From NCBI GenBank assembly GCA_017503785.1, contig JAFVSK010000012.1, positions 49,183 through 113,182 on the forward strand: DNA of 64,000 nucleotides, given 5' to 3'. The notes beneath the pieces are model-generated. The model was given only the letters and a program-made list of their open reading frames with translations. It made no database searches and was not told the origin of the DNA. A program made the position numbers and the translations under genes. Origin of the DNA: Clostridia bacterium. Its GTDB lineage: Bacteria > Bacillota > Clostridia > Oscillospirales > Acutalibacteraceae. Shown one piece after another: positions 2,852-63,697 of this stretch (position 1 is its first letter; each line of letters begins with the position of its first letter).

Positions 2852-3322
2852 TTACGTTCCTTTCTTGCGAAGCTTAGCACGCCAAAAGCAAACAAGCAAA
2901 ACAGCACCGATGCCAAGCAGCACGCCGACAATATCTTTAACCAGATCTGCCAATTCAAAAGCACGACCGGCAGAAAACCATTGCTGATGACATTCATCCA
3001 CCAACGCATACGCGCCACACACAAGGACGGTTATCCCCTGCCACCGCCGCACCGCATAGCTGCGAAACAGCAAGGCCACGGAAGTGCCCAGCAAGGCGAA
3101 CAGCACCACGTGAGCCGCACTGCGAACCAGCGCGTGCACCACAGCTTGCTGCCCTTCCGTTAATTTCAAAAACGAAAACAGTGTTCCCAAAAAGCCTTGG
3201 GTAACTTCCTCACTGAGCGCACCGGACTGCTCGGCAGTTTGGTGTGAAAGCCAAAATATCGCACCGGCGAGTCCCAGTGTGAAAACCCACAGTACGGTGC
3301 GATATACGATTACTTTACGCAT
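2852..3322 (-). CDS. VanZ-like integral membrane protein
   Basis: The 156 residues form about four transmembrane helices with the VanZ-family signature: FWLSHQ near residue 23, RSAAHVVLFALLG near 68, and DECHQ-F-GR-E-D-KD near 108-125. VanZ proteins are linked to teicoplanin resistance in enterococci, but most genomic copies have no known role. The start codon shares one base with the ybaB stop, so it is cotranslated with that gene. A resistance role should not be assumed. Confidence 0.85.
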   Translation of the reverse strand: MRKVIVYRTVLWVFTLGLAGAIFWLSHQTAEQSGALSEEVTQGFLGTLFSFLKLTEGQQAVVHALVRSAAHVVLFALLGTSVALLFRSYAVRRWQGITVLVCGAYALVDECHQQWFSAGRAFELADLVKDIVGVLLGIGAVLLVCFWRAKLRKKGT

Positions 3323-3663
3323 CAGAACGGCAGGTTCATGCCGCCGGTCAATTTTCCCATGGTTTCCTCGGAATCGGCCTGCGCCTTACGCACCGCTTCG
3401 TTAACGGCAGCGGTGATCATATCGGCCAGCATTTCCGTATCTTCCGGATCAACAGCCTCGGGATTGAGCACCAAGGAACGAATCAAATGCTTACCATCGA
3501 CCGTGGCAGTTACCATACCGCCGCCGGCAGCCGCCGTGTATTCCTTTTCTTCCAGCTCGGCCTGAGCAGCCGCCATATCCTCTTGCATTTTTTGAGCCTG
3601 GCGCAGCATCGACTGCATATTGCCGGGACCTCCGCCATAGCCTTGCGGTAATCTTGCTTTCAT
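3322..3663 (-). CDS. ybaB: YbaB/EbfC family nucleoid-associated protein
   Basis: Small dimeric DNA-binding protein almost always encoded beside dnaX and recR. The 113 residues have a glycine-rich start, the core helix MLRQAQKMQEDMAAAQAELE, the strand region GGGMVTATVDGKHLI and a terminal Gly-Met-Asn segment (GGMNLPF) typical of the family. It follows dnaX by six bases. Its precise role (nucleoid organisation or repair) is not settled for the family. Confidence 0.95.
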   Translation of the reverse strand: MKARLPQGYGGGPGNMQSMLRQAQKMQEDMAAAQAELEEKEYTAAAGGGMVTATVDGKHLIRSLVLNPEAVDPEDTEMLADMITAAVNEAVRKAQADSEETMGKLTGGMNLPF

Positions 3664-3669
3664 ACGTTA

Positions 3670-5268
3670 TCAACCTTTCTCATCAATGGAAATACCCGAT
3701 TCCGCACTGCGTTTTAAAAACGCCGTGAGAGGATCGGCAGACTCTGCAGCAGCTGCTTGTGCAGGACGGCCGCGCTTAATGCGCATCGGCTTCCCCACCA
3801 CTGCTTGCACAGCGTTAAGCAACACGGCTTTATTGCCGTCTTTTTTCACCAAGGGAATAAACATATCGTTGTCGGTGATCACAATAAGCTGCTCACCGTC
3901 AATCAACGCCGAAGAGTCGGATAAAACGCCATATAAAGGCGGGCTTTCTTTGGCAATATTCGCGAGCACGTCCGTCCAATCGGCGAACGGTGCAGGCTCT
4001 CCCCCGGCCGGCTTGGCGGGTGCTGTCGGTGTTTCGGGCTCCGCGCTCTCCATTGCAGGCGGTTCCTCGGCGGCCGGTGCCTCCTCTTCAACCACAGCCG
4101 AAGCCGCAGCAGGAATCGGTGCCGATACCGCAGGACGGCTTTCCAGCGCTTCAATGCGGCGAAGCAAGCTTTCCGGCGTGGTATCCAGCCGCGGATCGCA
4201 CAAGCGGAGCAAGGTGGTTTCCATTTCCACGCGCCGTGATACGCCGCTCTTCAAGCGATCCAACGTGCGCTGCAGCACATCCATGATATGCAAAATACTT
4301 TCCAGCGGCAACGCTTTGGCCTCGTTGCGAAGCTCGGTAAGCTCATCGGGTGAAATAACGATTAACGAGCCGGGATCACCCACGCTCTTTAAAATCATGA
4401 TATTGCGATAAAAATCAATCAGCTCCACGCACAAGCGCTCCATATCCTTGGAGCCTTCATACAAGGTGTTAAGCTGGGTAAGAGCTGCTGCGCCATCGTG
4501 ATTGCGCACCGCCGCTGCTAAGCGGAACAAATGCTCACGTCCGGCCATGCCGGTGGCCTCGGCCACCAACGCCGCCGTAATATTGTGGGAACGCGACAGG
4601 CATTGATCGAGCAGCGACAACGCATCACGCAGGCCGCCATCGGCCAACCGTGCGATCAACAAGGCCGCATCATCGGCCAGCGTGAACTGCTCTTGCTGCG
4701 CCACGTACTGCAGCCGTGCGCTGATCTCCTCGGCAGGAATACGGCCGAAATCAAAGCGCTGACAACGGGATAGGATAGTGGCGGGCAGCTTGTGAACCTC
4801 GGTGGTGGCCAAAATAAAGATGACGTGCTCGGGCGGTTCCTCCAGCGTTTTCAACAACGCGTTAAACGCACCGGCAGACAGCATGTGCACCTCGTCGATG
4901 ATATACACACGGTACTTGGCGACCGAGGGCGTAAAATTCACCTCATCGCGCAGATCACGAATGTTATCCACGCCGTTGTTGGAGGCCGCGTCAATTTCCA
5001 CCACGTCGAGAATGGTGCCGGCATCAATGCCGCGGCAATTATCGCACTCATTGCAAGGGTCACCGTCGTGCAGATTTAAGCAGTTAACAGCCTTGGCCAA
5101 AATTTTTGCGCACGAGGTCTTACCGGTGCCGCGAGAACCGGTAAACAAATAGGCGTGTGCCAGCCGCCCGGTACGTAATTCGTTTGTGAGTGCCGTAGTA
5201 ACAGCAGGCTGCCCATACACCTCCGAAAAGGTTTGCGGCCGCCATTTGCGGTACAATACCTGATACAA
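3670..5268 (-). CDS. dnaX: DNA polymerase III subunits gamma/tau (TTG start)
   Basis: Clamp-loader ATPase of the replisome. Early in the protein are YRKWRP, Walker A GSRGTGKTS, the four-cysteine zinc module (CLNLHDGDPCNECDNC), Walker B/DEVHML and the SRC sensor region; the C-terminal third is Ala/Pro/Glu-rich as in tau. I place the start at a TTG (5266-5268), giving 532 residues beginning YQVLYRKWRP, because AAAGGAG lies nine bases upstream; a longer frame starts at another TTG at 5295 inside the ribosome binding region. It lies directly downstream of the SRP RNA gene and heads the protein-coding part of the housekeeping run. Confidence 0.95.
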   Translation of the reverse strand: MYQVLYRKWRPQTFSEVYGQPAVTTALTNELRTGRLAHAYLFTGSRGTGKTSCAKILAKAVNCLNLHDGDPCNECDNCRGIDAGTILDVVEIDAASNNGVDNIRDLRDEVNFTPSVAKYRVYIIDEVHMLSAGAFNALLKTLEEPPEHVIFILATTEVHKLPATILSRCQRFDFGRIPAEEISARLQYVAQQEQFTLADDAALLIARLADGGLRDALSLLDQCLSRSHNITAALVAEATGMAGREHLFRLAAAVRNHDGAAALTQLNTLYEGSKDMERLCVELIDFYRNIMILKSVGDPGSLIVISPDELTELRNEAKALPLESILHIMDVLQRTLDRLKSGVSRRVEMETTLLRLCDPRLDTTPESLLRRIEALESRPAVSAPIPAAASAVVEEEAPAAEEPPAMESAEPETPTAPAKPAGGEPAPFADWTDVLANIAKESPPLYGVLSDSSALIDGEQLIVITDNDMFIPLVKKDGNKAVLLNAVQAVVGKPMRIKRGRPAQAAAAESADPLTAFLKRSAESGISIDEKG

Positions 5269-5301: not shown

Positions 5302-5452
5302 GCGCCCTGCACCCTCGGGTGTACGGACAAGCAGGCTCCCTGCGGCGCACGGCTGAATGCCGCTTAATGCTGCTCGGTTCCCCGCCTGACATGGTTCACG
5401 GATCGCCGTCGCGCAGGACCCGCCCGTCCGTACGCCCCAAGGTACACGACGC
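5302..5452 (-). ncRNA. ffs: Signal recognition particle RNA, long Gram-positive type
   Basis: The leftward strand carries the SRP RNA apical signature GTGAACCATGTCAGG ... GGGGAACCGAGCAGC, flanked by pairing arms. The 5' segment GCGTACGGAC pairs with the 3' segment GTCCGTAC, closing the molecule, and GGGTCCTGCGCGACGG fits an Alu domain as in Bacillus scRNA. The position immediately upstream of dnaX is the classic Firmicutes location. A strong promoter sits at the right distance to start transcription near 5452. Exact ends are estimated from the closing helix and may differ by a few bases. Confidence 0.9.
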
Positions 5453-12456: not shown

Positions 12457-13863
12457 TCACTCCTTACCGGTCCAGCAATAGGTACAGAATTTACAGGACG
12501 GCAGGCCGGTAGCCTCGATCATATCGTCTAAGCGCTGGTATTTAAGCGAGGTAAAGTGCAGCTCTTTGCGGATCTCCTCCACCATATTGGCGTACTCCGG
12601 CGTGTCGGGATCGGTGTACAACGGCAGCTTTTCCTCGGCCTTATCCCCTTCTAAACGAGCGATCACACGGCGAGCGATCAGATCCATCTCCGATGTAGAA
12701 CGCGAGAAATTAAGGTACTTACAACCATACATGATCGGTGGACAGGCTGCGCGGATATGCACCTCTTTAGCACCGCTGCGATACAAAAACTCCGTGGTTT
12801 CACGCATTTGAGTACCGCGCACCAAGGAATCGTCGATGAGCACCAGCCGCTTATCGTGAATGAGCTCACCCACGGGAATGAGCTTCATGTGGGCAATCAA
12901 ATTACGTTGACTTTGCTTTTGTGGCATAAAGGAGCGCGGCCACGTGGGTGTGTATTTAATGAACGGCCGTGAGAACGGAACACCGGTGCTGTTGGCGTAT
13001 CCAATGGCATGGGCAATGCCCGAATCGGGGATACCTGCCACGCTGTCGGCTTCAACAGGGTCGCGCTGTGCCAGCTTTTCACCGCAGCGGCAGCGCATGG
13101 TTTCCACGTTGACCCCCTCATACGACGAAGTAGGATAACCATAGTACACCCACAAAAAGGTGCAGATCTTCATTTCATCGCGAGCAGGAAGTAACGTTTT
13201 CACTTCATCGGCAGTAACAAAAACGATCTCGCCCGGGCCAAGCTCGCGCTCTTTATCGTATCCCAAATTTAAAAACGAAGACGACTCAAAGCTCGCGCAA
13301 TGGGCACCCTCTTTTTTGCCGATAACCACCGGAGTGCGCCCCATGTAATCCCGAGCCGCATACAAGCCATCCGGCGTGAGCAGCAGCATTGACATGGAGC
13401 CTTCGATCATGGTCTGTGCATGGCGGATGCCTTCTTCAATGGTATCCTTTTGATTGATGAGCGCCGCCGTAAGCTCAGTGGGATTGATGTTACCCCCGCT
13501 CATTTCCTGAAAATGCGGAATCCCCGTTTCAAACGCTTGCTTGACCAGCGCATCAATGTTGTTGATACGACCTACCGTGGTGATTGCATAATTTCCCAAG
13601 TGAGAACGCACAATAAGCGGCTGCGGCTCGGTATCGGAAATGCAACCAATGCCCGCGGTGCCACGCATATCGTCGACGTCTCGCTCAAATTTGGTGCGGA
13701 AAGGCGAGTTTTCGATGTTGTGAATAGCACGATCAAACCCATTTTCGCGGTCATATACCGCCATACCACCGCGCTTGGTGCCCAGATGAGAATGATAGTC
13801 AGTGCCGAAGAACAGATCGAACACGCAATCCTTGTGTGATACAACGCCGAAAAAGCCGCCCAT
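12457..13863 (-). CDS. Amidophosphoribosyltransferase-like protein lacking the Ntn cysteine
   Basis: 468 residues align by motif to PurF: a class II glutamine amidotransferase fold (YHSHLGTKRGG, SHLGNYAITTVGRINN), the PRPP loop LVLIDDSLVRGT (about 340-351) and cysteines at 234, 381, 460 and 463 placed like the 4Fe-4S ligands of Bacillus PurF. The mature N terminus should read CGVFG, but here it is MGGFFGVV: the nucleophilic cysteine is glycine, so glutamine hydrolysis cannot occur by the known mechanism. It may use free ammonia, or act in another pathway. No purine genes are adjacent; the only partner is the downstream lysR. AGGAG precedes the ATG. Confidence 0.85.
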   Translation of the reverse strand: MGGFFGVVSHKDCVFDLFFGTDYHSHLGTKRGGMAVYDRENGFDRAIHNIENSPFRTKFERDVDDMRGTAGIGCISDTEPQPLIVRSHLGNYAITTVGRINNIDALVKQAFETGIPHFQEMSGGNINPTELTAALINQKDTIEEGIRHAQTMIEGSMSMLLLTPDGLYAARDYMGRTPVVIGKKEGAHCASFESSSFLNLGYDKERELGPGEIVFVTADEVKTLLPARDEMKICTFLWVYYGYPTSSYEGVNVETMRCRCGEKLAQRDPVEADSVAGIPDSGIAHAIGYANSTGVPFSRPFIKYTPTWPRSFMPQKQSQRNLIAHMKLIPVGELIHDKRLVLIDDSLVRGTQMRETTEFLYRSGAKEVHIRAACPPIMYGCKYLNFSRSTSEMDLIARRVIARLEGDKAEEKLPLYTDPDTPEYANMVEEIRKELHFTSLKYQRLDDMIEATGLPSCKFCTYCWTGKE

Positions 13864-13955
13864 AATGCACTCTCCTTGAAAAATAAAAAATACTTTCCTA
13901 TAGTATCATAGTTTCTTGAAAATTTCTACATAAAAAAATAAATTTTTTAAAAAAA

Positions 13956-13986
13956 TAACGCGCAAAAGTGAGCCTTTTGCGCGTTA
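13956..13986 (-). terminator. Rho-independent terminator after the lipoprotein gene
   Basis: 13-bp stem TAACGCGCAAAAG with a 5-base loop, followed leftward by TTATTTTTTT. It separates the lipoprotein gene from the PurF-like gene. Confidence 0.85.
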
Positions 13987-13989
13987 TCC

Positions 13990-15717
13990 TTATTCACTCA
14001 TGGCCATTGATGGGCGCAGCACCGCAAAGCGATTGCAGCCCAGCACCTTTTCCAAGCAGGCATTACAGTCCTCTGCCGCCATACCATTTAGCAAATCATA
14101 GGCCGTATCGCCCATCAGCAAGAACAGACGGAGCATCGTACCGTCGGCATTTTCCGAGGCAACCAAAATATCACCCACCATCAGCTGGTGTTTATACGGC
14201 AAGCGAGTGCGAACAACCGCTTCTTCAACGCCGAAGTCCGGAATCGTGTAGCGACCGCCGTACATGGTGGGCACCAACATGGCCGCACAGGCGCCATCCG
14301 CTGCAGGCGTGAAATAATCAAGCGTACCCAAATAGGCATCAAATACCGACTCCAGCAGCGCTTCGCACGTGCTCGGCAACACGTCCTTTGTGCCAAAAGC
14401 TTCGGTATAGATGGCATTTGCCAGAGCGGTGCCGTTCAATTCCGAAGCCGTATACGTTTGTACGGCAGCAAGTAAGGAATTTTGCTGATCGGCCGTGAGG
14501 CTCTTGGCCACCACAACCTGCGGGCAGGACACGGAAACGCCGCCGACACTGCCGGAAGCGCCGCTTATTACATCCCCATACGCCGCATCGTCGTTCACCT
14601 TTACCGTATACGATACGGTTTTGGTTTCCCCGCCGGGCACGGTAAGCTTCCAAGACAGCTCGTTCCCCGTAACCGTTTCGGCGCCGGACACGTAAGCGGT
14701 TCCGCTCGGTACCGTGTCCTTGACCTCCAGGGTGACTGCGTTGGCGTTGGTGTTTTCCACAGAAAACGTGAAGGTGATCTCCTCACCCGGGTTCACGGTC
14801 ATGCCGACCGTGTGGCTGGACAGCTTTTCTGCCACAATGCCGTACAAATTGTTAATGCGGTTCACGCTTTCTTCGGGCACCTCACCGTCAAATACGTTGA
14901 GGGGGCGCACGATACCGATACTGAGCAGTTTAGAAAACACATATCGGCTGCTGATCGGGTCGAACAGCATGTCCACAGATGTCATGGAAATGCTGCCCTT
15001 TTGTTCAAATTTTTCCGTAAAGGTACTGTAATTGTAATTACCGCCACCGCTGTGGATAATATCGTACACATATTCCTTCTCAGTAACCGACGAGGTGGGG
15101 GCCGTGGTTTGCACGGTGTTCCCTTCCGCTTGATTGTTTTTATCGGCAATCACATTTTCCAGCACCTCGGCACCCACGTACAGCATCGCGTGGCCGTTGC
15201 CCTTTCTGCTGCCGTTATAGCGCACAACGATGATATCGCCAACCTTCAGCGTGTCGCGGAACTTTTGCTCTAATTCGGCCATTTCCTCCTCGGTTTCCTT
15301 GCCGGTGGGGAAATATTTGAACATCATCTGATCGGCACCCGTTTGAATCAATGAGGCCGTGGTATAACTCAAAATATCCTGATTCAGCGCATGATAATAC
15401 ACATCGTAAGTAAACGCCGCGCAGTTGGTGTAGGCGTAATACTGCGAGGTGGCATCCTCGGGTGATTTTTGGCCGCGCTCCCAACGGTAGCGAACCTGGC
15501 TCGGCACTAGGTCACCGGTAGCCAAGCGCGTATCGGCATATTGAATGCGGGAACCGCGTGCCAAATACGCCAGTGCCGTTTCCACCACGGCCTGCTGCGC
15601 CAACGACTCATACTCGATCTTCTTTTTTCCGTTCCCTGCGCAACCGCTAAATGCACACAATATTACTGCCGTTGCTGCAGGCAAGCACAATACACGCCGC
15701 CAAATCGTCTTTTTCAC
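13990..15717 (-). CDS. Lipoprotein with NlpC/P60-like and DUF11-like domains
   Basis: Predicted surface lipoprotein of 575 residues from a GTG at 15717 (GGGAGG seven bases upstream). The signal peptide ends in the lipobox FSGCAGN. The N-terminal domain resembles NlpC/P60 hydrolases: candidate cysteine in YTNCAAFTYDVYY and histidine in GNGHAMLYVG, with KVGDIIVVRYN between them. A central DUF11-like beta domain (NPGEEITFTFSVENTNANA to VKVNDDAAYGDVI) follows. The C-terminal region again has a MVGDILVAS segment and a strand pair, like a second degenerate copy without obvious catalytic residues. It probably acts on peptidoglycan or is a scaffold; that is inference. Confidence 0.75.
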   Translation of the reverse strand: MKKTIWRRVLCLPAATAVILCAFSGCAGNGKKKIEYESLAQQAVVETALAYLARGSRIQYADTRLATGDLVPSQVRYRWERGQKSPEDATSQYYAYTNCAAFTYDVYYHALNQDILSYTTASLIQTGADQMMFKYFPTGKETEEEMAELEQKFRDTLKVGDIIVVRYNGSRKGNGHAMLYVGAEVLENVIADKNNQAEGNTVQTTAPTSSVTEKEYVYDIIHSGGGNYNYSTFTEKFEQKGSISMTSVDMLFDPISSRYVFSKLLSIGIVRPLNVFDGEVPEESVNRINNLYGIVAEKLSSHTVGMTVNPGEEITFTFSVENTNANAVTLEVKDTVPSGTAYVSGAETVTGNELSWKLTVPGGETKTVSYTVKVNDDAAYGDVISGASGSVGGVSVSCPQVVVAKSLTADQQNSLLAAVQTYTASELNGTALANAIYTEAFGTKDVLPSTCEALLESVFDAYLGTLDYFTPAADGACAAMLVPTMYGGRYTIPDFGVEEAVVRTRLPYKHQLMVGDILVASENADGTMLRLFLLMGDTAYDLLNGMAAEDCNACLEKVLGCNRFAVLRPSMAMSE

Positions 15718-15745
15718 GAAACCGCCTCCCATCACTGTTGAGTCA

Positions 15746-15751
15746 ATTATA
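15746..15751 (-). promoter_or_regulatory. Extended -10 promoter of the lipoprotein gene
   Basis: TGGTATAAT on the leftward strand gives a consensus -10 with an upstream TGn and no good -35. Transcription would start about 22 bases before the GTG. Confidence 0.6.
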
Positions 15752-15810
15752 CCACGGCTTTGCGGCATTTTCTTGCCATGTGCCATAAATTTTATGCCAT
15801 TTTTTGACAT

Positions 15811-16578
15811 TTACAACGCTTCCAAGGCCGACCGTACCGCGGTATCCCAGTCCGGCTTTTCGGTAAACACCTTGGTTTTATCCTCCAGCTTGGAAAACTC
15901 TTCGTAATACCGCAAGCCGAACTCGCGCAGTGCGGCAGCCGAAAAATGCATATTATCGGGATTTCCTTTCAAGCCTTCTGAGGAAACATAGCCGGTCATC
16001 GGTGTTGTGGCAGCAATGTTACGCAACGTTGCATTTATGTGAACGTAATTGGTGAACACCGGCTCGCCCGCTTCCGTGCGCCACGTATGGTCGGCCAAAT
16101 ATTCGCCCAATCCACCCAGCAAGAACGGAACGTCGTACAGTTCCAAGTCGCGGCGGAACGCCTCCATAATGGGAACAAACTTTTCGGCGTACACCTGATA
16201 GCGGCCATCATAGCAATCCGACTCACCTTGATGCCACAGTACACCCGCAATGGTTGAGGTGCGTTGTGCCAGCTTTGCACAGTTCACAGCGTTATCGTAC
16301 AATACACCGCCCACCTGCCATTGATCTAAACACGTACCGCCGTCGGCACAAGGAATGAGACCGACTTCGACCCCATGCTCTTTGGCATACGCATCGGCAA
16401 AGCTTTCTGCCAGCGAGATGCCCGCCGTTACACGGTCGGGATTTACGGGCACGTACATTGGCCACCAGCGGCCGTTGCGTTGCACCTTAATGGCGGCATT
16501 TTCAATGGGTTCAACTTCTTCTTTAAAGCCACGTCCGGCCATATTTGACTGGCCGATCAACAAAAACGAATGGATCAC
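15811..16578 (-). CDS. Sialate O-acetylesterase-like (SASA/CE6) carbohydrate esterase
   Basis: 255-residue SGNH-type hydrolase. Catalytic serine block LLIGQSNMAGRG (Ser11), glycine/asparagine regions, WHQGESD near 114-120, and the C-terminal Asp-His pair in NPDNMHFS (about 220). Such enzymes remove O-acetyl groups from sialic acids, xylan or other glycans. No signal peptide is visible, so a cytoplasmic substrate taken up by a transporter is likely. It lies 45 bases downstream of the eutH-like gene and may be in one transcript with it. Confidence 0.85.
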   Translation of the reverse strand: MIHSFLLIGQSNMAGRGFKEEVEPIENAAIKVQRNGRWWPMYVPVNPDRVTAGISLAESFADAYAKEHGVEVGLIPCADGGTCLDQWQVGGVLYDNAVNCAKLAQRTSTIAGVLWHQGESDCYDGRYQVYAEKFVPIMEAFRRDLELYDVPFLLGGLGEYLADHTWRTEAGEPVFTNYVHINATLRNIAATTPMTGYVSSEGLKGNPDNMHFSAAALREFGLRYYEEFSKLEDKTKVFTEKPDWDTAVRSALEAL

Positions 16579-16623
16579 GGTGTTTCCCCCTCTTACAGCG
16601 GTTTGTTGGTTTTTAATATAAGG

Positions 16624-17709
16624 TCACTCCGGTTCAGCAGTTACGGCAACTCGTTTATACAAGACCGTCGCCAGCACGATCGCCAGCAAGCCGGATACCA
16701 GTTTTGCTATAATGACCGGTGTGATATACGCCGTGTCAAATGCCATGGTAAAGGCCAAATGACTGCCAAACACAAACGCCGCCGATACCACAAACGAGGC
16801 ATTGAGCATCACGCCCTTTTTGTCCATACGGTTCATCATTTCAAAGGTGGTGGCATTGGTCACCAGTGTGGACACAAAGCCCATTGCTGCGGTTTCGTTG
16901 ATCTTCAACGCCTTGCCAAGTGCCGCAAGCGGCTTTTGCAGCAGCTTGGATACAACGTGCATGAGCGGAAACGCGCCCGACAGCACAACAGCAGCGTTAA
17001 GACAAATATCGCCGCCAACCTTAATATCATCTAAAGCAGGAAGGATCTCCCAACCGGTGAGCGCCTTCACGATTCCCAGTGCCAAGCCGATGGTGATGAT
17101 GATCTTTATACCAATGCCGACGATGGAAAACACCTTAACGGTAGCCTCGGGAAACACGAGCAAACCGGCTGCGATCACGGCGGCGAAAATCAGAAGCGGC
17201 AACAGATTGACGAGAAGCGCCAAAAACGGCAGCCTCATCAACAAACCAACACAGAAGCAGCCTACGGGAATGGTCACAATGCCGCACAACAGTCCTAAAA
17301 ACAGCTCACGGTGACGCTCTTTTTCCACAACACCCAGCGCATACGGGATGGTGAACGAGATGGTACAGCCCATCATGGAGGACACCACCAACGCATTGTA
17401 CATTCCGATCGCTTCGTTTTGCGCAAGCTCCGTGGCCAAAGCGGTGCCGCCCATATCGTTGGCAAATAACGATGCAGGAATGAGCGACGGATCCAGATGC
17501 AGTGTTTCGTACACCCACGCGCAGAACGGTTGCATCCATTCTGCCAGCAACGGCGAGATCACCAGCATACCGATCATCGACAGTGCCATATTTCCCAGCA
17601 GCATAAAGCCGCGTTCAAACTCGCGCCCCAAGCCAAAGCGATTACCTAAAATGCGGTCGAGTGCACCCAACAGGGCAAACACCAGCATGATCATTGAAAC
17701 GAAGCTCAT
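16624..17709 (-). CDS. eutH: EutH-like ethanolamine transporter family protein
   Basis: 361 residues, about ten transmembrane helices. Family features are ALDRILGNRFGLGREFERGF at the N terminus, GNMALSMIGM, the FANDMGGTALA block near 83 and an NATTFEMMNRMDKKG segment near 295. EutH facilitates ethanolamine entry in organisms with eut microcompartments. No other eut gene, lyase or shell protein is in the window, so this is an orphan copy; the actual substrate is uncertain. It follows the PHP phosphatase gene by 13 bases, with AGGAG upstream of its ATG. Confidence 0.88.
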   Translation of the reverse strand: MSFVSMIMLVFALLGALDRILGNRFGLGREFERGFMLLGNMALSMIGMLVISPLLAEWMQPFCAWVYETLHLDPSLIPASLFANDMGGTALATELAQNEAIGMYNALVVSSMMGCTISFTIPYALGVVEKERHRELFLGLLCGIVTIPVGCFCVGLLMRLPFLALLVNLLPLLIFAAVIAAGLLVFPEATVKVFSIVGIGIKIIITIGLALGIVKALTGWEILPALDDIKVGGDICLNAAVVLSGAFPLMHVVSKLLQKPLAALGKALKINETAAMGFVSTLVTNATTFEMMNRMDKKGVMLNASFVVSAAFVFGSHLAFTMAFDTAYITPVIIAKLVSGLLAIVLATVLYKRVAVTAEPE

Positions 17710-17722
17710 ACGCCCTCTCCTT

Positions 17723-18538
17723 TTACAGTGCTACCGCTTGGAAGCCGTGATCGGTTAAAATATACCGTTCGGTAAAGCCGGCCTCCAACAGCAAATCGCG
17801 GGATAATTCAAAGCCGACATCCAAATACCGACCGTCGTGGCAATCCGATGAAATAATAGCACCAAAGCCCAAGCGTTTACATTCGCGCAGCAGCTCCAAC
17901 GAGGGATACGGTGACGTGCGATATCCACGCGCCATAGCGCCGGTGTTCACCTCAAAAAACGGAATCTTCCCTTGCAACGCCTGCAACGCTTCACGAGCAA
18001 CGTCTAAGTACGCTTTTGACTGTATGTCAAAAAATGGAATCTGCTCAATGTTTTTCGTAAGCAAGTCAAGATGACCGAGAATATCAAACTTGCCATACTG
18101 TGGCAGCGTGGCAAGCTGCGCGTAATATTCCTTGGCAAAGGCTAAGCCGTTACCGCTGAAACGGGTATCAATAACCGCCTGCACCGTTTCGGCAGGACGG
18201 TCAAACGCCACGTACTCGTTGCCCAGTTTCAGGTAATGCAACGCACCGATAAGATAATCGTAGCCCGACAGATCGACCCCGGAATACATATCCACTTCCA
18301 AGCCCAAATAAACGGGAAAGCGGCCTTTGTATTTTTCTTTCAGCGCCGTAACCTCCACCTTGTAGCGCTCCGTGCCTTCCAGCGACACCAGCTTGTACGG
18401 CGAATAGAACATATAGGAATGACCCGAAAAACCCAAAGAATCGAAACCCTTTTCCATGGCAAAACGAATCATCTCTTCGGGCGTGTGTTCACCGTCACAA
18501 TAGGTGGTGTGAGTATGCAGATTTTGCAGTAATTTCAT
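17723..18538 (-). CDS. PHP-domain phosphatase, histidinol-phosphatase (HisK/HisJ) type
   Basis: Metal-dependent PHP hydrolase of 271 residues. Motifs: NLHTHTTYCDGEHTPEEM at the N terminus (metal ligands), GFSGHS near residue 40, LGLEVDMYSG, GHLDLL near 160, and ISSDCHDGRYLDVGFE at the end. This pattern fits histidinol-phosphate phosphatase, but no his genes are nearby and PHP specificity is broad. The ATG 18538 is preferred to the TTG three codons upstream although its ribosome binding site is weak. First gene of a probable PHP-eutH-esterase transcript. Confidence 0.82.
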   Translation of the reverse strand: MKLLQNLHTHTTYCDGEHTPEEMIRFAMEKGFDSLGFSGHSYMFYSPYKLVSLEGTERYKVEVTALKEKYKGRFPVYLGLEVDMYSGVDLSGYDYLIGALHYLKLGNEYVAFDRPAETVQAVIDTRFSGNGLAFAKEYYAQLATLPQYGKFDILGHLDLLTKNIEQIPFFDIQSKAYLDVAREALQALQGKIPFFEVNTGAMARGYRTSPYPSLELLRECKRLGFGAIISSDCHDGRYLDVGFELSRDLLLEAGFTERYILTDHGFQAVAL

Positions 18539-19456: not shown

Positions 19457-19554
19457 CGTCTATGAGTTTCGGTACAGCCCGTCAGGGCGGATGAACTCCA
19501 CGGCCTAAAAACGTGCCACCGGCACGTTTTCTTTACGGCCTTTCGAATCCCTCC
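19457..19554 (-). repeat. tRNA-tail cassette, second (distal) copy at the tRNA-Arg(CCG) locus
   Basis: 98 bases identical to 19639-19736, displaced by 182 bases. Read leftward it opens with the antisense T-arm copy GGAGGGATTCGAA, then the 42-nt core hairpin, then a less conserved region ending in AGACG. Unlike the proximal copy it lacks the following tRNA tail and terminator, so it is truncated. Confidence 0.9.
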
Positions 19555-19560
19555 AAACGG

Positions 19561-19597
19561 AAAAAGAGAGCACCACCTGTCGGTGATACTCTCTTTT
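19561..19597 (-). terminator. Second terminator of the tRNA-Arg(CCG) locus
   Basis: Hairpin with A-rich left arm and T-rich right arm (AAAAAGAGAG paired with CTCTCTTTTT, loop GACA) directly after the duplicated tRNA tail. Its stem sequence differs from the first terminator. Confidence 0.75.
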
Positions 19598-19616
19598 TGG
19601 CCCGCCCGGAGGGATT
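19598..19616 (-). repeat. Duplicated 3' tail of tRNA-Arg(CCG)
   Basis: 19 bases identical to the last 19 of the tRNA gene, from the T-loop AAT through CCA. There is no 5' half, so it is not a tRNA gene. Confidence 0.9.
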
Positions 19617-19638
19617 GTACAGTGCGGGCGGTCGTTCT

Positions 19639-19736
19639 CGTCTATGAGTTTCGGTACAGCCCGTCAGGGCGGATGAACTCCACGGCCTAAAAACGTGCCA
19701 CCGGCACGTTTTCTTTACGGCCTTTCGAATCCCTCC
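19639..19736 (-). repeat. tRNA-tail cassette, proximal copy at the tRNA-Arg(CCG) locus
   Basis: Begins with the antisense T-arm copy (19724-19736, complementary to tRNA bases 19792-19804), continues with the 42-nt core at 19682-19723 (outer GGCC/GGCC, inner AAAACGTGCC/GGCACGTTTT, loop GGT), and runs through CTGTACCG and AGACG to a sense copy of the tRNA tail at 19598-19616. No coding frame. The same architecture recurs at two other tRNA genes in the window. Confidence 0.85.
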
Positions 19737-19745
19737 GTGCAAAAC

Positions 19746-19776
19746 AAAACACACCACCTTTGCGGTGGTGTGTTTT
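19746..19776 (-). terminator. Terminator of tRNA-Arg(CCG)
   Basis: 13-bp stem AAAACACACCACC with a 5-base loop and a run of T residues, starting 5 bases after the encoded CCA. Confidence 0.9.
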
Positions 19777-19781
19777 ATTTT

Positions 19782-19858
19782 TGGCCCGCCCGGAGGGATT
19801 CGAACCCCCGGCCTTTGGAATCGGAATCCACTGCGATATCCAGCTTCGCCACGGGCGG
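19782..19858 (-). tRNA. tRNA-Arg (anticodon CCG)
   Basis: 77 bases including encoded CCA. Acceptor CCGCCCG/CGGGCGG, D-arm GCGA/TCGC, anticodon loop TTCCGAT (CCG, reads codon CGG), T-arm GGGGG/CCCTC with TTCGAAT. The anticodon stem has a G-A mismatch at 27-43. Confidence 0.92.
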
Positions 19859-38446: not shown

Positions 38447-38500
38447 AAAAAATAACGAGCACCGCAAAGCGGTACTCGTTATTTTGGCGCGCCCGAAGGG
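38447..38500 (-). repeat. 54-bp direct repeat: copy of the tRNA-Arg(ACG) tail plus terminator
   Basis: Identical to 38629-38682 over 54 bases, 182 bases apart. It contains the acceptor 3' strand with CCA and the whole terminator, but no 5' tRNA half. Confidence 0.92.
38449..38484 (-). terminator. Duplicated terminator of the tRNA-Arg(ACG) locus
   Basis: Same hairpin as at 38631-38666, following the duplicated tRNA tail. Confidence 0.85.
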
Positions 38501-38626
38501 GCTTGTGCAGCGCGGTGGTGTGTTCTCGTCTTTTGGTAACGGTACAGTGCGGTAGGGCGCAGAAACGCTACGGCCTAAAAACGTGCCACCGGCACGTTTT
38601 ATTTACGGCCTTTCGAATCCCTTCGG
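38501..38626 (-). repeat. tRNA-tail cassette at the tRNA-Arg(ACG) locus
   Basis: Leftward it opens with the antisense T-arm copy CCGAAGGGATTCGAA (38612-38626), matching this tRNA and not tRNA-Arg(CCG). The 42-nt core at 38570-38611 differs from that of the first locus by a single base (AAAT for AAAG). CTGTACCG, AGACGAGAAC and a 22-base spacing to the tail copy are shared with the other loci. Confidence 0.85.
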
Positions 38627-38630
38627 ACAA

Positions 38631-38666
38631 AAAATAACGAGCACCGCAAAGCGGTACTCGTTATTT
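38631..38666 (-). terminator. Terminator of tRNA-Arg(ACG)
   Basis: 17-bp stem around AATAACGAGTACCGC with a 3-base loop and a T run, directly after CCA. Confidence 0.9.
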
Positions 38667-38743
38667 TGGCGCGCCCGAAGGGATTCGAACCCCTGACCTC
38701 TTGATTCGTAGTCAAGCACTCTATCCAGCTGAGCTACGAGCGC
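38667..38743 (-). tRNA. tRNA-Arg (anticodon ACG)
   Basis: 77 bases with encoded CCA. Acceptor GCGCTCG/CGGGCGC with a G-T pair, anticodon stem CTTGA/TCAAG, loop CTACGAA (ACG, read as ICG after editing), T-loop TTCGAAT. Confidence 0.95.
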
Positions 38744-63386: not shown

Positions 63387-63474
63387 GGAGAGTTGTCCGA
63401 GTGGTCGAAGGTGCAGCACTCGAAATGCTGTAGGGCGAAAGTCCTCTAGGGTTCGAATCCCTAACTCTCCGCCA
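63387..63474 (+). tRNA. tRNA-Ser (anticodon CGA)
   Basis: 88 bases with encoded CCA and a long variable arm. Acceptor GGAGAGT/ACTCTCC, anticodon stem CAGCA/TGCTG, loop CTCGAAA, T-loop TTCGAAT. Confidence 0.95.
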
Positions 63475-63479
63475 AAACG

Positions 63480-63507
63480 AAAAAACCGCCCAAAAGGGCG
63501 GTTTTTT
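63480..63507 (+). terminator. Terminator of tRNA-Ser(CGA)
   Basis: 12-bp stem AAAAAACCGCCC with loop AAAA and TTTTTT. Confidence 0.92.
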
Positions 63508-63512
63508 GTTTT

Positions 63513-63657
63513 GGAGTTAGGGATTCGAAAGGGCGTTAAGAAAACAGTCCGGCGGACTGTTTTTAGCCCGTCGCGTTTATCCGCCCTAAACGGACCGTCG
63601 GGACGCCGGTCCCTACAGCCGAAATTCGCAGACGAGATCAATCTGCCGCATTGTACA
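63513..63657 (+). repeat. tRNA-tail cassette at the tRNA-Ser(CGA) locus
   Basis: Opens with the antisense T-arm copy GGAGTTAGGGATTCGAA (63513-63529), specific for this tRNA. The 42-nt core (63530-63571) has the same plan as the two Arg loci but a different stem: GGGC/GCCC outside and AAAACAGTCC/GGACTGTTTT inside, loop GGC. A middle part with inverted GGGACGCCGGTCCC follows, then CAGACGAGAT and 22 bases later the tail copy. Confidence 0.85.
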
Positions 63658-63697
63658 ATCACCCTAACTCTCCGTCAAAACAAAAAACCGCCCAAAA
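63658..63697 (+). repeat. Degenerate copy of the tRNA-Ser(CGA) tail and terminator
   Basis: CCCTAACTCTCCG and AAAACAAAAAACCGCCC repeat the tRNA tail and the left terminator arm with a few changes (CCGTCA for CCGCCA). The right terminator arm is absent; a GGAGACA/TGTCTCC hairpin follows. Confidence 0.82.

Follow-up and report, generated by a model that had tools for sequence, protein, structure and literature searches.

The window, by which we mean the whole stretch of 64,000 nucleotides that was analysed, contains six tRNA genes, three of which are followed by copies of a short repeated unit: tRNA-Arg(CCG), tRNA-Arg(ACG) and tRNA-Ser(CGA) (Table 1). Read along the tRNA strand, the parts are the tRNA gene with its CCA, a terminator, an antisense copy of the T-arm, a core, a sense copy of the tRNA tail with CCA, and another terminator. 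The initial annotation had proposed this layout, and we found it as described at tRNA-Arg(CCG), which has two units; one unit each stands behind tRNA-Arg(ACG) and tRNA-Ser(CGA), again as annotated, with flanks that match their own tRNA. A run of 98 bases (GGAGGG...AGACG) from the antisense T-arm and core of the first Arg(CCG) unit recurs exactly 182 bases away at 19554-19457. The double copy reported there is thus real, with the qualification that the second copy is truncated and has no sense tail after it. The antisense copy is present as claimed, but it is not always 13 bases long: from T54, the first base of the T-loop, it runs through the 3' strand of the T-stem into the acceptor stem, and its length among the units of the window is 13-16 nt. 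At tRNA-Arg(ACG) the second terminator repeats the first (38 identical bases after the CCA), whereas at tRNA-Arg(CCG) it is different and at tRNA-Ser(CGA) it is degraded.

Table 1. Positions of the tRNA genes and unit parts in the window. R1 is a covariance model of the unit, built from 18 copies.
Feature	Position	Strand	Basis
tRNA-Arg(CCG), target gene 1, complete to CCA	19782..19858	-	ARAGORN and Rfam RF00005
Proximal terminator hairpin, unit 1	19738..19781	-	sequence, folding
Antisense T-arm, unit 1, 14 nt, exact reverse complement of tRNA-Arg(CCG) nt 54-67	19724..19737	-	
Core, unit 1: outer stem, palindromic hairpin AAAACGTGCC-GGT-GGCACGTTTT, AGACGAGA box, right end CTGTACAAT	19614..19723	-	R1 147.7 bits; covariation
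Second sense tail copy, nt 61-76 with CCA, unit 1	19598..19613	-	nt 62-76 identical, 15/15
Terminator of unit 2, near-identical to the tRNA-Arg(ACG)-unit terminator in two sister species	19555..19597	-	
Antisense T-arm, unit 2	19542..19554	-	sequence
Core of unit 2, truncated after AGACG	19457..19541	-	exact 98-base repeat with unit 1
tRNA-Arg(ACG), target gene 2	38667..38743	-	ARAGORN and Rfam
Proximal terminator, Arg(ACG) unit	38627..38666	-	sequence
Antisense T-arm, Arg(ACG) unit, 15 nt, exact	38612..38626	-	
Core, Arg(ACG) unit	38501..38611	-	R1 141.8 bits
Second tail, nt 61-76 with CCA, Arg(ACG) unit; then terminator copy (about 38484-38445)	38485..38500	-	
tRNA-Ser(CGA), target gene 3	63387..63474	+	ARAGORN and Rfam
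Proximal terminator, Ser(CGA) unit	63475..63513	+	sequence
Antisense T-arm, Ser(CGA) unit, 16 nt, exact	63514..63529	+	
Core, Ser(CGA) unit	63530..63661	+	R1 117.1 bits; match 155 bases vs 135
Second tail, nt 61-76, Ser(CGA) unit, decayed (CGTCA for CGCCA)	63662..63677	+	

A search of the window with the core pattern (three mismatches or fewer) gave 4 occurrences against 0.04 expected from shuffles. All were confined to these three tRNA genes; the Val-Glu-Met cluster has none. The Ser(CGA) unit carries an extra insert of about 20 nt at 63598-63618 (around GGGACGCCGGTCCCTACA) that is absent from the other units. An Rfam scan at gathering thresholds recognised only tRNAs and one SRP RNA in the window and returned no match for the unit; the SRP RNA is a small one (RF00169) at 5326-5425 on the minus strand. 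A second scan, of four related loci at a permissive E-value, brought only tRNA and tmRNA to threshold, the remaining matches being sub-threshold, so that neither the window nor these loci tie the unit to an Rfam family. Literature searches found no description of such an element.

Searching the source genome (2.06 Mb, 64 contigs) and its relatives with R1, as the initial annotation had suggested, uncovered further copies behind other tRNAs. Of the outcomes that the annotation had named as refuting it, neither a lack of copies at other tRNAs nor an Rfam match was observed. There were 8 matches in the source genome, and all nine genomes of the genus had matches. Among 300 genomes drawn from the family, 93 matched at E ≤ 0.01, representing 53 of 135 genera, many of them in the hairpin part only. 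In a draw at the level of the order, 14 of 394 genomes matched at E ≤ 1e-5; nine belong to the same family (the source genome included) and five to four other families. A pattern scan of contigs (at least three loci) placed the unit in named records of an uncultured Ruminococcus, an Oscillospiraceae MAG and a Clostridia MAG from goat rectum. Plasmid records gave a single match, in Subdoligranulum variabile, where the same plan follows tRNA-Arg(ACG). No copy was found in viral contigs by exact pattern or in phage records. In G050 (L155-L160, about 1360-1460 in most) the same hairpin module, CGTTAAGAAAATATGCCGGTGGCATATTTTTAG, lies inside dispersed palindromic repeats with TGTAGGG...CCCTACA-like ends, and no tRNA was found there.

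For a closer comparison, 60 regions around the better R1 matches were taken, and the search of 69 sources returned 89 matches, of which 81 copies were analysed. The eight left out were L013 (a duplicate of L091), L144 and L146 (which lack the 5' part) and the weak or partial matches L134:2764, L095:2233, L089:2630, L126:3132 and L121:2939. As shown by these 81 copies, the placement behind tRNA genes holds for most: 44 lie within 60 nt behind a tRNA or tmRNA gene, a count to be read with the fact that the copies from which R1 was built were themselves mostly behind tRNAs, so that the model favours such copies, the tRNA sequence itself being outside the model. Another 11 lie at 61-300 nt (seven of these are second copies of arrays whose first copy is counted) and three at more than 300 nt. 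For the remaining 23 there was no tRNA upstream within the stretch examined; 14 of them start less than 400 nt from the beginning of that stretch. Exceptions occur in the source genome also, where one copy lies about 770 nt behind tRNA-Ala(CGC) and one truncated copy has no tRNA within its 3 kb stretch. The 44 adjacent copies follow 15 kinds of tRNA plus tmRNA: Tyr (10 copies), Ser(CGA) (6), Ala(CGC) and Ala(GGC) (4 each), Arg(ACG), Pro(GGG) and Ser(GGA) (3 each), Arg(CCG) and Gln(CTG) (2 each), and Pro(CGG), Gly(CCC), Leu(TAA), Thr(TGT), Trp(CCA), Arg(CCT) and tmRNA (1 each). Tandem arrays with near-identical copies exist. Among 27 copies from the genus (L134 and L029 left out), core similarity showed no significant clustering: 458 of 2000 permutations equalled or exceeded the observed value for genome and 112 of 2000 did so for tRNA, and recent spread inside one genome is therefore not demonstrated by these cores.

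The antisense arm follows the tRNA behind which it stands. It was compared in 42 of the 44 adjacent copies (L110, which has no T-loop, and L119, which has no anchor, were left out), and it matched the local tRNA from T54 over 11-19 nt, with no mismatch in 37. Against all other tRNA kinds in the set, the local tRNA was the best match in 41 of 42, and the arm tracks local variants of the T-loop (TTCGACTCC, TTCGATCCC and TTCAAGTCC). It reaches the end of the acceptor stem in two of the 42 only. An antisense 12-mer within 160 nt behind the tRNA was present at 37 of 55 tRNAs that have the core motif, compared to 3 of 92 that do not, and those three have a variant or truncated unit. The 14 stretches L233-L246 entered the analysis through this tRNA control. 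Of the 18 core-bearing tRNAs that lack the 12-mer, 15 have an exact antisense match of 9-11 nt, and three (L020, L119 and L134) have none of 6 nt or longer. The distal tail, scored in the same copies, agreed with the tRNA at 10 or more of 15 bases in 38 of 42 and at all 15 in 18. Mismatches amounted to 6.1% in the distal tail and 1.8% in the antisense arm, a gap on which we do not lean because the anchor favours the antisense arm and because nt 62 is often the joint itself.

The hairpin of the core is a nearly pure Watson-Crick palindrome. Over 88 distinct rows, 98.8% of cells were paired, and 12 of 15 pairs showed double changes, 216 cells in all; none of 500 shuffles was as high on any measure. 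The four central pairs accounted for 137 double changes with no one-sided change and one unpaired cell among 344. A helix maintained as RNA would be expected to change by way of G-U intermediates. When hairpins were folded singly, 1 of 604 pairs was G-T (61 hairpins), compared to 48 of 712 in 43 neighbouring terminators and 16 of 244 in the acceptor stems of 35 tRNAs; the regular expression that collected the hairpins and the model both require AAAAC/GTTTT-like feet, and clean stems are somewhat favoured by this. Because G-T pairs are nearly absent, the palindrome is constrained on both strands rather than as one RNA. Judged from the base pairs, what keeps it may be a DNA hairpin or cruciform, correction of the palindrome, or service as a bidirectional terminator. 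Strict palindromy is also a requirement of a bidirectional transcription terminator, and we count this against reading the unit as a mobile element.

Joints were examined in the 38 copies whose distal tail was readable (at least 11 of 14 tail bases). The duplicated block of tRNA sequence starts at nt 61 in 25, at nt 63 in 10 and elsewhere in three. The seven-base T-loop ends just before nt 61. On the other side, the antisense arm, in its own reading direction, ends at the complement of T54, which is the last T-loop base of that strand, and the core is joined there. Since the block starts at nt 61 and the antisense arm ends at the complement of T54, the core borders on T-arm sequence at either end, each time at the T-loop's 3' edge, with one border for each strand. 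Beyond A76, the two copies of the tail agreed exactly for 0-5 bases in 29 of 38 copies (chance mean 1.03) and for 9-60 bases in the other nine, in which the terminator is repeated too. In three of the 29 the terminators were still more alike than the 99th percentile of unrelated pairs, and 26 of 38 copies have unrelated terminators after the two tails. Since there are two copies of the block, a crossover could lie anywhere within nt 61-76. In two short units from other genera, L173 and L174, the tail starts earlier, within the T-loop; in these and in Subdoligranulum the antisense arm covers more of the T-arm.

Comparison of one tRNA locus with and without the unit, which had been recommended for this element, gave clean inserts at two orthologous loci of sister species. 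At tRNA-Arg(ACG), L205 in G004 is empty and L204 in G005 is occupied, the insert being 184 bp; at tRNA-Ser(CGA) the roles are reversed, L177 in G005 being empty and L178 in G004 occupied, with an insert of 193 bp. In both global alignments the flanks match on both sides. At the occupied loci the tRNA gene is whole and its own tail is followed by a terminator that is absent from the empty site, while the tail and terminator on the far side of the insert correspond to those at the empty site. Elsewhere in the genus the Ser(CGA) unit is absent from G001 and G007, present in G000 and G002 and truncated in G003; in G006 the 3' half of the gene alone is seen, together with a truncated unit, and in G008 the 5' half alone. 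Targets differ between sister species. In G008 (L183, G008:C150, from 1501) the tRNA-Ser(CGA) gene is interrupted at the anticodon loop. About 130 nt further downstream stands a second tRNA-Ser that looks complete, as though a replacement tRNA had come with an inserted element. In L226 (G005, tRNA-Arg(CCG)) most of the core between the tRNA and the displaced tail is replaced by a ATGATATAC-type repeat, and only the right end of the core remains.

The second Arg(CCG) unit of the window (genome G000) has a terminator that is nearly that of the Arg(ACG) units in G002 and G005, and its tails are local. We conclude that terminator and core moved or were exchanged between these loci without the tail. 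This was the one convincing case among the best 41 of 3240 pairs compared for terminator sharing; it involves two related Arg genes, and it favours copying of the local tail at insertion. The order of events was not always the simple one, because the proximal, and not the distal, terminator at Arg(CCG) in G000 resembles, by eye, the displaced terminator of G005.

The empty and occupied pairs, the differing targets of sister species and the sharp left edge of the duplicated tRNA block support one of the two readings offered at the outset, that of a minimal mobile element which enters tRNA 3' ends and regenerates them. The data show the insertion itself, the position of the duplicated block and an inverted arm that is exact for the local tRNA. 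We consider it reasonably probable that the unit is mobile DNA, non-autonomous and non-coding, which enters at the T-arm, leaves the gene restored and is moved by an enzyme supplied in trans. Against this reading count the absence of a linked recombinase, the lack of core clustering by genome or tRNA, the 23 of 81 copies with no tRNA upstream, the negative results in viral contigs and phage records, and the nine of 38 copies whose terminator is duplicated as well. In such a mechanism a site-specific recombinase acting in trans would read the nearly universal, nearly palindromic T-arm sequence GGTTCRANNCC. The antisense arm, core hairpin and tail might fold jointly into an attachment site, as a cruciform or in single-stranded form, with the antisense arm pairing across the joint, and the inverted copy would be either made from the target at insertion or corrected later by palindrome repair. 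A bolder version, which we hold only tentatively and think improbable as it stands, is that of a gene-less folded cassette able to enter any tRNA or tmRNA gene through the universal T-arm, writing an exact inverted copy of the host T-arm into itself as a splint or guide for the joining.

Which enzyme would do this was approached through the genomes that bear the unit. Tyrosine recombinases (PF00589) were found in 10 of 10 bearing genomes and equally in 14 of 14 controls, so that no recombinase is linked to the element and the tyrosine recombinase suggested at the outset as the mover remains a candidate. Y1 transposases (PF01797) were over the cut-off in 5 of 10 bearing genomes (any match, 7 of 10) and reverse transcriptases (PF00078) were present in 3 of 10; on these counts we set aside reverse transcription by a group II intron or retron and hold HUH/Y1 transposition to be less likely. 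Absences weigh less here, as the moving enzyme may have been lost after the event. A seven-base symmetric centre suits tyrosine integrases and the integron integrase uses folded palindromic sites, and for both reasons we prefer a site-specific recombinase acting in trans on the T-arm. A further reason is that the T-loop and the T/acceptor junction are known crossover sites of tyrosine integrases, as described in PMC4383910.

At some loci, genes lie between the tRNA and the unit, and a gene cassette was considered; in L231 and L232 these genes belong to recombinase-bearing elements at the same tRNA, and cargo genes are no regular part of the unit. The L232 element (12889-18233, reverse strand) is of the tyrosine-integrase kind. 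On one side it has tRNA-Ala(GGC) and on the other a 50-nt exact copy of the 3' part of that tRNA, after which two units follow. In L231 (10009-18783, reverse strand) and in L014, genes that by eye are serine-recombinase-like stand upstream of the unit, and these tRNA ends appear to serve a further family of elements as well.

The best rival to integration by a recombinase in trans is a staggered cut, in which a casposase, Cas1-like enzyme or other integrase would read the T-loop and cut the two strands at different places, one after nt 60 and one after the CCA. The 16-bp tail would then be a target site duplication and the element would consist of terminator, antisense arm and core. We regard this as unlikely. 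In its favour, both tails are local in the aligned copies, as a target duplication would give; the unrelated terminators in 26 of 38 copies limit the block to about nt 61-76; and at Arg(CCG) the terminator between the local tails is a foreign one. In A. boonei, as reported in PMC6614799, the casposase reads the T-loop-like TCAAATC of a tRNA-Pro gene and makes duplications of 14-15 bp. According to the same report, however, the casposon inserts 8-9 bp beyond the T-loop motif, whereas the block here starts at the edge of the motif. Terminal inverted repeats were not apparent by eye in the alignments, the left end would have to be a variable terminator, and in nine of 38 copies the terminator was duplicated along with the tail. 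Somewhat less likely again is local fold-back amplification, whereby template switching among the tRNA tail, the terminator palindrome and the core hairpin would build a zigzag of tail, hairpin, antitail, hairpin and tail without a dedicated enzyme, and palindrome correction would keep the arms exact. Tail and antitail do alternate around two hairpins, hairpin and antisense arm are near-exact palindromes, and tandem arrays hold near-identical copies. Local copying, however, cannot bring the shared core, about 110 nt long, to tRNA genes whose orthologues in sister species are without it, and the sharp start at nt 61 is unexpected from random switching. Fold-back copying may nevertheless explain the upkeep of the antisense arm.

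The other reading offered at the outset, a structured RNA closed by a mimic of the T-stem, was weakened by the data and has been set aside as the main explanation: G-U pairs are nearly absent (1 of 604) and the closing helix is incomplete, the antisense arm seldom reaching the end of the acceptor stem. Read-through from the tRNA or a promoter in the core would yield an RNA with a closing helix of antisense arm and tail and a CCA end, acting on tRNA processing or as a decoy. Such an RNA would account for the covarying hairpin, the CCA and terminator at the end and the exact antisense match to the T-arm. We think it quite improbable, since a terminator stands between the tRNA and the unit, truncated copies persist, orthologous tRNAs free of the unit exist, Rfam scans of the window and four loci gave no match, and the distal tail is more variable than the antisense arm, a difference that is partly a junction effect at nt 62. 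Least probable of all, and very remote, is that the units descend from ordinary tRNA-targeting islands, each from a larger integrative element that shrank by internal deletion. Recombinase-bearing elements do lie between the tRNA gene and the unit in L232 (a PF00589 match) and L231 (by eye), an apparent serine recombinase C-terminus lies upstream of the unit in L014 (19-420, by eye), and in L122 the two copies behind tRNA-Ser(CGA) have a Fic-like gene (372 aa, by eye; 2870-3988, reverse-strand coordinates) between them. The duplicated tRNA piece in L232 is 50 nt from the anticodon arm, however, and not from the T-loop, so that element has a site of its own, and a near-constant length and sequence behind 16 kinds of gene is unlikely to come from independent deletions.

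An insertion at a tRNA gene that keeps the gene whole is of a kind already known. The islands of tyrosine integrases described with Islander split a tRNA or tmRNA gene near its 3' end, restore it with sequence of their own and displace the 3' fragment (PMC4383910), and our unit does likewise at the two empty and occupied pairs. Unlike those islands it measures about 190 bp, which leaves no room for an integrase gene, it carries an inverted copy of the local T-arm, and one core serves all its target-gene kinds. With integron cassettes and their attC sites (compare PMC2727003) it shares an imperfect palindrome that is kept by structure and not by sequence. Growth of arrays at an anchor and a hairpin as recombination site might be further likenesses. 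The unit differs from integrons in that it usually has no cassette gene, no IntI is linked to it, a tRNA gene serves as its anchor and its arms match whichever tRNA is local. Like the casposons of PMC6614799, it targets the 3' end of tRNA genes at a T-loop motif with a direct repeat of similar size; unlike them as described there, it contains no Cas1 or other gene within its 184-193 bp, in addition to the difference in block position given above and to the terminal inverted repeats, of which none were apparent by eye.

MITEs, REP/RAYT sequences and other palindromic intergenic repeats are short, gene-less, palindromic and dispersed, and are presumably moved in trans. The unit resembles them in these respects, and its hairpin module is found inside other palindromic repeats as well (G050). 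Unlike them it inserts at a defined place of tRNA genes with the gene end restored, and only half of the bearing genomes have PF01797 over the cut-off. What is new in the unit is its size, the absence of genes, the breadth of its targets and the self-matching inverted arm.

Bacterial islands classically dock at tRNA genes, and an integrase normally serves one or a few tRNAs, the island carrying the tail of that tRNA. In contrast, one short core was found here, in gut bacteria, at 15 kinds of tRNA and at tmRNA, at one position of the gene and nearly every time with an exact inverted copy. If an enzyme reads the T-arm generally, it would be a broad-target integrase that leaves its target gene whole. 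The finding raises a question that can be tested, namely how a mobile element matches its own end to each new target. If the bolder version were true, in which a cassette writes the host T-arm into itself, the units would form a class of mobile DNA not seen before, whose members tailor their own end to each target.
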